Source of the DNA: Erysipelotrichaceae bacterium
Lineage (GTDB): Bacteria > Bacillota_I > Bacilli_A > Erysipelotrichales > Erysipelotrichaceae
Direction of reading: 5' to 3'
NCBI GenBank assembly: GCA_015058955.1
Contig: SVBJ01000003.1
Span: forward strand, 62,001-126,000
DNA length: 64,000 nt
Shown: one piece after another, positions 46,271 through 50,428 of the stretch
How the letters are laid out: every line of letters starts with the position of its first letter
Position numbering within the stretch: position 1 is the first letter of the stretch
Made by a program: the position numbers and the translations under genes
Notes under the pieces: model-generated
Database searches by the model: none
What the model was told of the DNA's origin: nothing
The model's input: the letters and a program-made list of their open reading frames with translations, nothing else

Positions 46271-47488
46271 TTAAAATTTTAGCACAAATAAATTCGGTTT
46301 GATAGTGTAATGCGATTTATCACACCCAATATTGGCGATAAAGACAACCTGTCCCTTACTGTTTACCACTACCGGCCATCTGCTGCGCTCTTTTCTTTTT
46401 ATTTTACGGTCAATGAAGAAACGCGACAGTTTCTTTCGGCCGTAACGCAGCTGGATCTCATCACTGCCCTGCCCGTTTCGCACAATTACCGGAAAATCCT
46501 CTTCACTCAGCGATACTCCTTCTATGACCTTCCCACTGTCCTTCAGTTCAAAATACGGTGTTTTGAAATACTCCGGTTTTTCCAGAACATAGCAGTATCC
46601 TTCAAAAGGTTCATTGACATAGATGACACCGTATTCGTATACGATTTCCAGGCCCTGATAAACCGGTATGTAACCGTTTCTCTTACTGTTAAGTATCGTA
46701 TTGACAATGTCATCAATGTAGTCGGAAGAATAGCTGCCGGTTCTGTCTTTCTGCCAGATCAGCCATCTGATCAGTTCACCTTTTCTGCTTTCCCGGACAA
46801 ACTGTTCCATCGGAATCTCTTCTCCATATTGTTTTTCAAACCTTTCCAGCATTTCCTGCTGCTGCCGGTTGAACTGATCTATTTCCTGTAACCAGCACTC
46901 TATCTGCTGATCATCAGCCGGTTCAATCAGTGAATGCCTGATGCGGTTTCTGGTATAGTGATCGGTGAAGTTGCTTTCATCGTCATGGAAAGGAACCCCA
47001 TTCTCCAGGCAGTATTCTCTGGTCTGCTTCTTACGGTACTTTAGCAGAGGTCTTAAGATCCTCATGCCATGATGGTATCCTTCGTAAGGAATACCGTAAT
47101 ACCAGCCATGGGAACCTCTTTCCAGTGACATCAGGTAATTCTCAATATGATCATCCATCTGGTGCCCCGTTAACAGATAATCACACTGCTCCCGGTCATA
47201 TACCTTCTTATAAAACTCATAGCGGACATTGCGGGCCCACATCTGGAAGTTTTCACTGCCATGCTGGACAGGATAATCCTTATACAGCTTTACGCCATGT
47301 TTATTGCAGAATCTCTCCACAAGCCGTTCTTCCAGGTCAGCTGATTCCCTGATCTTATAATTCACAAAGCATACAACGACATCCAGTCCTTCCTCAAGGC
47401 ACAGTGAAAGAAGCATCATGGAATCACTTCCCCCTGATACTCCCACAAGATATCGGTACTGCTTTTCGAGATTCAGTTTTTCGTTCAC
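46271..47488 (-). CDS. tilS: tRNA(Ile)-lysidine synthase
   Basis: 405 residues. The PP-loop S-G-G-S-D-S is at 18-23, followed by the domain that carries H-Q-M-D-D-H-I-E-N. TilS adds lysine to C34 of tRNA-Ile(CAU), changing its identity and codon reading; it is essential. The start codon is GTG at 47488 with no ribosome site. A TGATATCAT extended -10 box ends six bases before it, so the mRNA is likely leaderless. It opens the tilS-hpt-ftsH operon. Confidence 0.9.
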   Translation of the reverse strand: MNEKLNLEKQYRYLVGVSGGSDSMMLLSLCLEEGLDVVVCFVNYKIRESADLEERLVERFCNKHGVKLYKDYPVQHGSENFQMWARNVRYEFYKKVYDREQCDYLLTGHQMDDHIENYLMSLERGSHGWYYGIPYEGYHHGMRILRPLLKYRKKQTREYCLENGVPFHDDESNFTDHYTRNRIRHSLIEPADDQQIECWLQEIDQFNRQQQEMLERFEKQYGEEIPMEQFVRESRKGELIRWLIWQKDRTGSYSSDYIDDIVNTILNSKRNGYIPVYQGLEIVYEYGVIYVNEPFEGYCYVLEKPEYFKTPYFELKDSGKVIEGVSLSEEDFPVIVRNGQGSDEIQLRYGRKKLSRFFIDRKIKRKERSRWPVVVNSKGQVVFIANIGCDKSHYTIKPNLFVLKF

Positions 47489-47520: not shown

Positions 47521-47545
47521 CAAAAGCACTGGATTAACCAGTGCC
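47521..47545 (-). terminator. Terminator after the fatty-acid isomerase-like gene
   Basis: 7-bp stem GCACTGG/CCAGTGC with a 5-base loop and TTTTG tail on the minus strand. Confidence 0.7.
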
Positions 47546-47567
47546 TGTATTATTAATAATTGATTGT

Positions 47568-48980
47568 TTAGAAGAATCTGGTAACGATGTCCTTGCTGGC
47601 AGCACAGGTATCTTCCATGTCACCGAAGCTGATTATCTCACCGGCATAGTAAGTACCCTGTTTGCCCTGCATGGCTTCCAGCTTGTCATACCAGCCGTCT
47701 GCGTAATCCTTGGAGCTGACATGCGGACAGTAGTAGGTTTCCTGTTCAAACAGTCTTTCCTTTACCGGGAATCCGCATAGCTCCATGTCCTTCATCATGG
47801 TATCAATTGTATAGTCGTAGCTGACATCCTTGCTGCCAAGATGGTTGCGTAATGCATAAACCACGCTCGGGCAGTTGCCCTTCAGGTCTTCCCAGCGGTG
47901 ATAATATACCATGGCATGTCCCAGACGATCATATGTCATGTTATCAAAGATGTAACCGGAAATGGTCGGGCCGGCATTTTCATCAAACCTGGCGATGAAG
48001 TCAACATACTTTTCGTGAATGATCTTGCTGAAGAGTTCCTTTTCTTCTTCTCTGGCATCTGCATATGTGGCAAAGTAATCCAGAGGTGTGGTAACGATCA
48101 GCTTATCGAATTCTTCTACTCTTTCTCCCTTAGCATCCTTAATGGTGACCTTGATCTTTCCTTCGGTTCCTTCAGCCGGACGGACAACCTTGACTACCTC
48201 AGTATTCAGATGTGCAGGGTGCAGAAGTTTTTTATTGGCATTTACATAGATGGACTGCGTACCATCCTTCCATGTCCACAGTCTCATGTTGACAAATTCA
48301 ATGGCTGTTGTGGTATCCAGATATTTCATAACATAGGCAGCCGGGATTTCATCAAAGTAACCGTAGCCAAATGAAGTATAAGGTCCGATCCATATTCTCA
48401 TGACTTCTTCAACACCGTTGAGCTTGCAGAACTGATCAAATGGCAAAGCAAGATCCTTCAGATTAGGATTTTCTCCTTCAATCATATTCAGTGCATTATC
48501 AACGTTCTTATCCAGACCTGAATACCTGCCCTGAGCAACTCCACGGTGACCGTAGCAGTCATATCCCTTATACTTGGTATTCATGATCTCAACAAGCTTC
48601 TTCATCTGCTTCTTCAGTTTCAAAAGGCCAAGTGTCTTTCTGATGGAGAAGTTCTTCTTGATGTCAAACGGGAAGATTTCCTTACCGCTGGAATCTCTGT
48701 ACATACGGCGCATGTTTGGACCGTCAGCGTGACTGGTTCCGCCGAATTCCTCAACCTCATGAACGGCATGATATGTTATTGCTCCCATGATGGCTCCGGT
48801 TTCGTATGATCTCTCTTCACCGTTTACCTTAATCTTTGGTGAATAGGACTTTCCTCCTACCTTATTGAGCTTTTCATAGATTTCATAGTTTGTGTATCCC
48901 TTTTTCTGAAGATACATGGCAGCAGAAATGCCCGCAGGGCCTCCTCCGATGATGCAGATTCTTTCATTAAGATTTGTCAT
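47568..48980 (-). CDS. Polyunsaturated fatty-acid (linoleate) isomerase-like flavoprotein
   Basis: 470 residues with an FAD-binding motif I-I-G-G-G-P-A-G at 10-17 and V-G-G-K at 41-44. The rest resembles the Propionibacterium (Cutibacterium) acnes isomerase PAI, which makes 10E,12Z conjugated linoleic acid: compare Y-K-G-Y-D near 137, P-Y-T-S-F-G-Y-G-Y-F-D-E-I-P-A-A-Y-V, a W-T-W-K-D-G-T-Q-S segment, P-T-I-S-G-Y and Y-Y-A-G-E-I-I-S-F-G. PAI is shorter (about 424). The match is from recall, not from an alignment. No signal peptide or membrane span. It is a single gene, AAGAGGTAAATAATA before ATG 48980, in an accessory region beside an IS remnant. A general amine-oxidase-like role remains possible. 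Confidence 0.7.
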   Translation of the reverse strand: MTNLNERICIIGGGPAGISAAMYLQKKGYTNYEIYEKLNKVGGKSYSPKIKVNGEERSYETGAIMGAITYHAVHEVEEFGGTSHADGPNMRRMYRDSSGKEIFPFDIKKNFSIRKTLGLLKLKKQMKKLVEIMNTKYKGYDCYGHRGVAQGRYSGLDKNVDNALNMIEGENPNLKDLALPFDQFCKLNGVEEVMRIWIGPYTSFGYGYFDEIPAAYVMKYLDTTTAIEFVNMRLWTWKDGTQSIYVNANKKLLHPAHLNTEVVKVVRPAEGTEGKIKVTIKDAKGERVEEFDKLIVTTPLDYFATYADAREEEKELFSKIIHEKYVDFIARFDENAGPTISGYIFDNMTYDRLGHAMVYYHRWEDLKGNCPSVVYALRNHLGSKDVSYDYTIDTMMKDMELCGFPVKERLFEQETYYCPHVSSKDYADGWYDKLEAMQGKQGTYYAGEIISFGDMEDTCAASKDIVTRFF

Positions 48981-49068: not shown

Positions 49069-49605
49069 TCACAATGTCAGCCCTTCAATGAAGCGTTCCT
49101 GAATATTTCTGAACTTTGCCCCGTTTACCGGCAGATTTCCCTTAACGTCTATTATCCTGGCCGTATTGATGTACTTGCCGTCATTAAGAAATAACACGGA
49201 TTCCTTATACAGCCCTTCCACATAACCCAGACGGTAAAGATGCTTCAGTCCTTCAGGATTGTCCTTTTCATCATAAGCTTTCAGCCAGGCTTCGTGATTG
49301 GAAGTCATCGGTATGACAAAGGCCTTCCCGTTGAATACCTTCAGTACCACACCGAAATGCTGGTAACCTATTTCTGAAACATAGGCACGTCCGAAGTCAA
49401 TAAAACATATGTCACCGGGAGATATGTTCAACCCGAAATGGCGGCAGGACTTCAATTTTGATCTTGTTTTATAATTGTATTCACTTATCAGCGTACTTCT
49501 GGCCATGCTGACCGGCATGCTGTAGTATTCATCTCTGAGTTCTCTGATATGATCCTTTATCAGATGATCAATATTACTGTAGTTAAAGTTATTTATTTCT
49601 GACAT
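49069..49605 (-). CDS. PemK/MazF-like protein with an N-terminal extension, no antitoxin seen
   Basis: 178 residues. Residues 62-178 fit the PemK/MazF endoribonuclease fold: S-P-G-D-I-C-F-I-D-F-G (62-72), V-V-L-K-V...V-I-P-M-T-S (about 86-102), and a late strand I-N-T-A-R-I-I-D-V-K-G. The first 60 residues are a charged helical region not found in the standard 110-residue toxins. The usual R-P after the first strands is replaced by Y-Q-H-F-G. No antitoxin gene lies upstream or downstream. AAGGGAG precedes ATG 49605. An orphan toxin relative, or a type III-like or regulatory protein, is possible; activity is unproven. Confidence 0.6.
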   Translation of the reverse strand: MSEINNFNYSNIDHLIKDHIRELRDEYYSMPVSMARSTLISEYNYKTRSKLKSCRHFGLNISPGDICFIDFGRAYVSEIGYQHFGVVLKVFNGKAFVIPMTSNHEAWLKAYDEKDNPEGLKHLYRLGYVEGLYKESVLFLNDGKYINTARIIDVKGNLPVNGAKFRNIQERFIEGLTL

Positions 49606-49700
49606 TATGTAACTCCCTTCAATACTGAGTAGTCAGAAATAACTGTTCTTCCTGAAAAAATCTCTGCTTCACTGAACTTGTCAACGAAAAGTAGACAGGT

Positions 49701-49934
49701 TTAAAAAGTCAAACGGAAGCCCTGATCGAGAGCAAACTCGGCGGGGCTTTTATAGTTAAGCTTGTACATTGGTCTATCATAGTTGTAATACTTGATGTAC
49801 CGATTAATAAAGTCATCCAAGGAATCATATTCATTGATTCTGTAGTCTGCCCAGCCATTTATAATATCCTGATCTGTTTACTGACATCACTTTGCACAGA
49901 TATTTCACCGGATATTTATTACTTAACTTTTTTA
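49701..49934 (-). pseudogene. IS3-family transposase orfB remnant, internally deleted and frameshifted
   Basis: The minus strand first reads C-E-Y-E-I-I-K-K-L-S, then K-Y-L-C-K-V-M-S-V-N-R-S-G-Y-Y-K-W, the start of OrfB. It then jumps in another frame to N-G-W-A-D-Y-R-I-N, Y-I-K-Y-Y-N-Y-D-R-P, and the C-terminal S-P-A-E-F-A-L. The junction lies at AAATGGCTGG (about 49851-49864), which fits both frames, so deletion by short-repeat recombination is likely. No DDE triad remains. Confidence 0.8.
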
Positions 49935-50300
49935 TGATCTCGTATTCGCAGCGAAGATAGTAACGTACTCCTTGTTTACACCACCTCCTTTGACCAGATA
50001 TCCTTTTTTTAATCGTTCATTCTCTATTTTCAACTTTAGGTTCTCCAGTTCAAGACGTTCTTCCTTGCTCAGTGACTTTGAAGTATGAAGCGCTGAAAAG
50101 GGATTTCCCGGTCTTTTCCTGCCAGTTTCTAACAGCCCTTCGTTATATAGTTTTACCCAGGCACGCACACGCGCTTCCGCAATGTTCAATTCGGCAGCGA
50201 CAGATCTAAAAGAACGATGCTCGTTCAGATATGTTTTAACTGCTTTTAATTTGAATTCATATGGATACTTTCTGTTTTTACCGCCTTTTGGTCTTCCCAT
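49932..50300 (-). CDS. IS3-family transposase OrfA
   Basis: 122 residues. Residues 1-60 are a helix-turn-helix of the IS150/InsC kind (Y-P-Y-E-F-K-L-K-A-V, then S-V-A-A-E-L-N-I-A-E-A-R-V-R-A-W). Residues 75-95 form a leucine-rich coiled coil (L-E-N-L-K-L-K-I-E-N). It would bind the element ends. AAGGAGGTAATATC precedes ATG 50300. An A7 run (50003-50009) in the late part is the expected slippery site for making the OrfAB fusion, now useless because orfB is deleted. Confidence 0.8.
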   Translation of the reverse strand: MGRPKGGKNRKYPYEFKLKAVKTYLNEHRSFRSVAAELNIAEARVRAWVKLYNEGLLETGRKRPGNPFSALHTSKSLSKEERLELENLKLKIENERLKKGYLVKGGGVNKEYVTIFAANTRS

Positions 50301-50354
50301 GATATTACCTCCTTCATTTAAATCATAAGAAAAAGTAGACTTTGGATTAAGTCT

Positions 50355-50381
50355 TTTGACTTTTTTCCGTGTCTACTTTTA
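50355..50381 (-). repeat. Right terminal inverted repeat of the IS3-family element
   Basis: Minus strand AAAAGTAGACAC...AAAAGTCAAA, the imperfect counterpart of 49687-49713. A third copy of AAAAGTAGAC in direct orientation lies at 50331-50340. Confidence 0.65.
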
Positions 50382-50428
50382 TCTTACTAGTTCATTCACA
50401 CAGAGATTTTCATTTCATTTATCAGTTT

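Follow-up and report, generated by a model that had tools for sequence, protein, structure and literature searches.

A predicted PAI-type fatty-acid double-bond isomerase of ruminant-gut bacteria and the redox genes that recur beside it

Introduction

The closest described relative of the gene analyzed here is the polyunsaturated fatty acid isomerase PAI of C. acnes, the protein in PDB entry 2B9W. In the PAI mechanism, the N5 of FAD shuttles a hydride from C11 to C9 of the substrate, and R88 and F193 act as a gate for the fatty-acid carboxylate. Bifidobacterium BBI and Lactobacillus LAI/MCRA hydratase likewise make conjugated linoleic acid (CLA) from linoleate, but by description they are other enzyme types, a membrane-bound isomerase and a hydratase. 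To our knowledge, the gene neighbors that we describe below resemble none known for PAI.

Trans-10 fatty acids are tied to milk fat depression, and the rumen bacteria and enzymes responsible for them have been described as unclear (PMC7339423, PMC9853040, PMC11770317). Of 28 rumen species tested, C. acnes alone produced them (PMC7339423), and it has been called an unlikely sole or predominant source in vivo (PMC9853040); AP1 has been presented as the available rumen isolate (PMC11770317). As of 2015, the fatty-acid oxidoreductase that acts in rumen biohydrogenation had eluded detection in genome databases (PMC4478896). PAI homologues in rumen metagenome-assembled genomes (MAGs) were reported in 2023 (PMC10019597); the accessible part of that report does not name Erysipelotrichaceae, leaves four MAGs unclassified, and mentions neither flavo-iron-sulfur/HypAB nor saturase-like neighbors. 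As far as that part shows, the isomerase is not new in kind, and its ruminant clade structure and conserved redox neighborhood are apparently undescribed. Here we present a PAI-type gene in a 64,000-nt stretch of an Erysipelotrichaceae genome (hereafter the window), together with its relatives.

Results

The isomerase gene encodes a full-length PAI homologue

The open reading frame at 47568–48980, predicted from homology to encode a PAI-type FAD fatty-acid double-bond isomerase, begins with ATG and runs for 470 aa with zero internal stops. A preliminary description of this DNA had given the same coordinates, which hold; the gene reads on the minus strand, as do all the window features described below. 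A phmmer search of the product against all PDB chains returned a single match, 2B9W with its five sister entries (E=2e-107, 363 bits), with 193 of 414 residues identical (46.6%) across two aligned stretches, a sequence likeness far above chance level. A profile built from 22 relatives recovered PAI at 3.7e-127 and matched other oxidases weakly. Pfam assigned only the generic Amino_oxidase domain (PF01593, 7e-12), and the NCBIfam models gave weak matches well under their cut-offs. The claim of homology to PAI along the full length is thus borne out, with the cofactor and gate residues conserved, and the segments named in its favor all occur in the frame: the FAD motif IIGGGPAG, YKGYD, FGYGYF, WTWKDGTQ and YAGEIISFG. 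The outcome named as speaking against it, low identity to PAI with closer kinship to amine or phytoene oxidases, was checked, and such oxidases are far more distant than PAI.

An AlphaFold model made from the relatives' alignment (pLDDT 78, pTM 0.83) adopts the three-domain fold of PAI, with low confidence over much of residues 199–236, part of the substrate region. The top Foldseek match was again 2B9W (TM 0.82/0.90, E 2e-43), while the non-PAI folds all had E>=1.8e-18, the value of the runner-up, which places the model outside the flavin amine oxidase (PF01593) functional family. The comparison with the PAI structures that had been proposed as a check also aligned the key residues. First, the FAD dinucleotide-binding motif (residues 10–17, 48930–48953) aligns with PAI residues 11–18, and the glycines of its GxGxxG pattern, G13, G15 and G18, are invariant among about 120–125 aligned relatives. 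Second, R92 (48705–48707), the putative carboxylate gate, corresponds to PAI R88, and F229 (48294–48296), its putative gate partner, to PAI F193; both are invariant in the same alignment. Third, F204 (48369–48371), which lies within FGYGYF, corresponds to PAI F168 and is conserved in clades A, A2 and B (see below). By all sequence and structure tests applied, the predicted product of 47568–48980 belongs to the PAI family. It differs from C. acnes PAI in its length (470 versus 424 aa), in its separate clade, and in an insertion of about 25–30 residues (residues 147–172, 48465–48542), which follows YGHR and according to the alignment is partly common to the other gut clades.

The locus predates the IS3-type remnant

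Directly 3' of the isomerase gene lies an intrinsic-terminator-like hairpin (47524–47546, a consensus match only), which suggests a single-gene transcript at this locus. The downstream neighbor is TilS (46271–47488), in the same order as in the relative L009. Upstream lies a conserved 178-aa protein, u178 (49069–49605), which is syntenic in L004, L009 and L085 and has no family match in Pfam or NCBIfam.

The preliminary description had placed the isomerase next to an IS remnant and suggested acquisition. The element is real, an internally deleted IS3-type element (49657–50410) with an intact OrfA (49932–50300) and imperfect 50-nt inverted repeats at its ends (49657–49706 and 50361–50410), but it sits upstream of u178 and does not adjoin the isomerase. 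It is absent at the equivalent spot in relatives: the order AKR-u178-PAI is found without an IS in both L004 and L009, and in L009 it runs on into TilS-Hpt-FtsH. Because relatives share the gene order without the element, the remnant is a later insertion and not the vehicle of the isomerase gene. The isomerase shows no GC anomaly, its GC3 being equal to that of its neighbors. Neither phage nor plasmid carriage was indicated; viral contigs gave no match, and plasmid matches were partial and only 25–30% identical.

Seven of the nine genomes of the window's genus carry the gene. In the six besides the window's own, the product is 91–99% identical; the position of the gene varies within the genus. 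Since it is present in 7/9 genomes, the gene is native to its genus. The proposal of IS-linked acquisition accordingly falls, while that of lateral movement survives at the level of the family, as described next.

Relatives are common in ruminant guts and form distinct clades

A scan of genome contigs yielded 185 relatives of the isomerase, of which 80 were retained for the distribution and locus counts. By title, 53 of the 80 are ruminant MAGs, 26 of them RGIG genomes from named ruminants and 27 bearing the RUG label, which presumably denotes a rumen genome. The earlier characterization as gut-type should be narrowed to the ruminant gut: relatives are widespread among bacteria from the guts of cattle, sheep, goats and deer, and the ruminant sequences fall in three clades. 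Sequenced isolates with the gene include Erysipelotrichaceae NK3D112 (84% identity) and, from pig, Porcincola intestinalis (71%). Within the window's order, the isomerase was found in 53/295 genomes, all belonging to one family. In the genus of one Butyrivibrio MAG (L045), an assignment that rests on that MAG's title, only 2/79 genomes match. Because host lineages come from MAG labels, we treated them cautiously; two relatives, L036 and L077, occur in MAGs labeled Gammaproteobacteria and Spirochaetaceae and are possibly mis-binned contigs.

The isomerase tree resolves clade A, which contains the window protein, clade A2 (486 aa, other Bacilli) and clade B (about 450 aa); C. acnes PAI branches on the side of the last. 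Identity to PAI is 53–57% in clade B and mostly 45–48% in the window's clade, which is set apart by about 45 type-specific positions in the alignment of relatives. Because of this lower identity and these positions, the substrate or product specificity of the window's clade may differ from that of PAI. In the genus g8, some genomes carry a clade A isomerase and others a clade B isomerase, and none in the survey carries both. Isomerase identity exceeds RpoB identity for both NK3D112 (84% versus 65%) and Porcincola (71% versus 58%), in a comparison that used the longest ORFs and in which two rows gave no usable value. On this sequence evidence, horizontal spread of the isomerase family between host lineages is well supported.

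A flavo-iron-sulfur oxidoreductase recurs beside the isomerase

In 36 of the 80 loci, a gene for a flavo-iron-sulfur oxidoreductase of ~940 aa (930–970 aa) lies near the isomerase. The encoded protein contains 4Fe-4S, Fer4_20 and pyridine-nucleotide oxidoreductase domains, and its C-terminal half resembles Nfn/GltD-type electron-transfer subunits; the predicted model of its N-terminal half (pLDDT 52) was too poor for interpretation. Ten surveyed clade A genomes have both genes on one strand with 20–52 bp between them. HypB- and HypA-like genes, whose products resemble nickel chaperones, are frequent beside this partner, as in L031 and L032, which have the order PAI-HypB-HypB-flavoFeS-HypA. The window genome carries HypB-HypB-flavoFeS (930 aa)-HypA on contig C14 (L163:9458–13931), a separate contig from that of the isomerase, and no hydrogenase gene was recognized among the ORFs read around this cluster.

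Across the order, the partner family is present in 53/53 isomerase-positive and 53/242 isomerase-negative genomes (Fisher 5e-29, uncorrected for shared ancestry). On the partner tree, whose sample is biased toward isomerase loci, the isomerase-linked partners fall into two deep clades, and on the isomerase tree they are intermixed; from these trees, the association arose or was exchanged repeatedly. The partner is not an exclusive companion of the isomerase, as the family is present in many genomes without it, including a full-length copy in about 40/79 genomes of the Butyrivibrio MAG's genus. Because it is so widespread without the isomerase, its role could be more general. In 15 loci of the Butyrivibrio genus, no recurring isomerase-like gene was seen beside the partner (unlabeled neighbors were left unannotated). 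This genus has two flavo-iron-sulfur paralogues (L184–L196), one mostly standalone and the other near HypA/HypB in most loci read.

A saturase-like gene follows the clade B isomerase

In 21/30 clade B genomes, a same-strand carotenoid-desaturase/saturase-like gene lies within 5 kb downstream of the isomerase, with a gap of 48–73 bp in ten genomes. Its product matches the CrtI/carotenoid isomerase/saturase family (TIGR02734 2e-24, TIGR02730 3e-21), both below cut-off and too distant for naming a function. At L150:6416–9143, downstream of the isomerase, the gene for the saturase-like flavoenzyme, a candidate conjugated-diene reductase, is neighbored by one resembling a [2Fe-2S] NADH reductase. 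No saturase-like gene was found in the window genome at E<=1e-60 or in the Butyrivibrio genus at E<=1e-40, the latter in a search without a positive control. An acyl-CoA-ligase-like gene is divergent from the clade B isomerase at L150:3543–4886 and L141:3566–4897.

Proposed function and alternatives

Considering homology, predicted fold and gene neighborhood together, we think it likely that the protein is a soluble FAD-dependent PAI-type isomerase that acts on free polyunsaturated fatty acids, with the conjugated product probably then reduced. By analogy with PAI, a free fatty acid would enter a hydrophobic tunnel and its carboxylate would be held at R92 of the R92/F229 gate. Because a double-bond isomerase is recurrently paired with reductases, we infer an isomerize-then-reduce step of biohydrogenation in these anaerobes. 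The candidate reductase would be the ~940-aa flavo-iron-sulfur oxidoreductase (on C14 in the window genome) and, in sister clade B, the carotenoid-saturase-like enzyme.

The genus group of Butyrivibrio makes trans-11 products (PMC7339423, PMC4478896), and the near-absence of the isomerase there (2/79) argues against a classical trans-11 isomerase, which does not by itself prove a trans-10 product. A broader proposal, which we offer tentatively and consider rather doubtful, is that ruminant-gut anaerobes encode a trans-10 biohydrogenation route, in which a PAI-type isomerase would work with a new NAD(P)H-linked flavo-iron-sulfur conjugated-fatty-acid reductase (with HypA/HypB-like assembly) or, in clade B, a saturase-like reductase, and that these bacteria, beside C. 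acnes, make milk-fat-lowering CLA. One hindgut study saw enrichment of NK3D112 when the feed was low in concentrate (PMC8845480), which is not the kind of diet that favors the trans-10 shift and is at odds with a simple tie to milk fat depression under high-concentrate feeding. The widespread isomerase clade and its recurrent redox neighbors are testable candidates for a reaction in the rumen that is associated with low milk fat. As the clade is represented among sequenced cultures (NK3D112 and Porcincola intestinalis), the questions of the trans-10 maker and of the reductase are both directly testable.

The foremost alternative, which we judge improbable, is a PAI-type isomerase of other specificity, forming cis-9,trans-11 CLA or using alpha-linolenic or another polyenoic acid. 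The split of clades A and A2 from C. acnes PAI and clade B, the about 45 fixed differences and the extra insertion are consistent with such a change, but the gate residues are unchanged. Sharpea, a relative within Erysipelotrichales, also speaks for this alternative. It makes trans-11 products (PMC7339423). Against it, 77/79 genomes of the trans-11-making Butyrivibrio genus are without the gene.

Much less probable still is another oxidoreductase of the flavin amine oxidase superfamily with nothing but the fold in common, such as an amine, phytoene or protoporphyrinogen oxidase, as the generic Pfam domain and the superfamily folds next in the Foldseek ranking might suggest; the global identity to PAI, the lead of 2B9W over every other fold and the weak, sub-cut-off NCBIfam matches argue against it. 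Finally, a decaying or silent gene carried as mobile-element cargo, to which the nearby IS remnant and the varying gene position within the genus could point, is hardly credible given the intact full-length frame, the close conservation of the protein in six further genomes of the genus, the conserved residues, and the same synteny in relatives without the IS.
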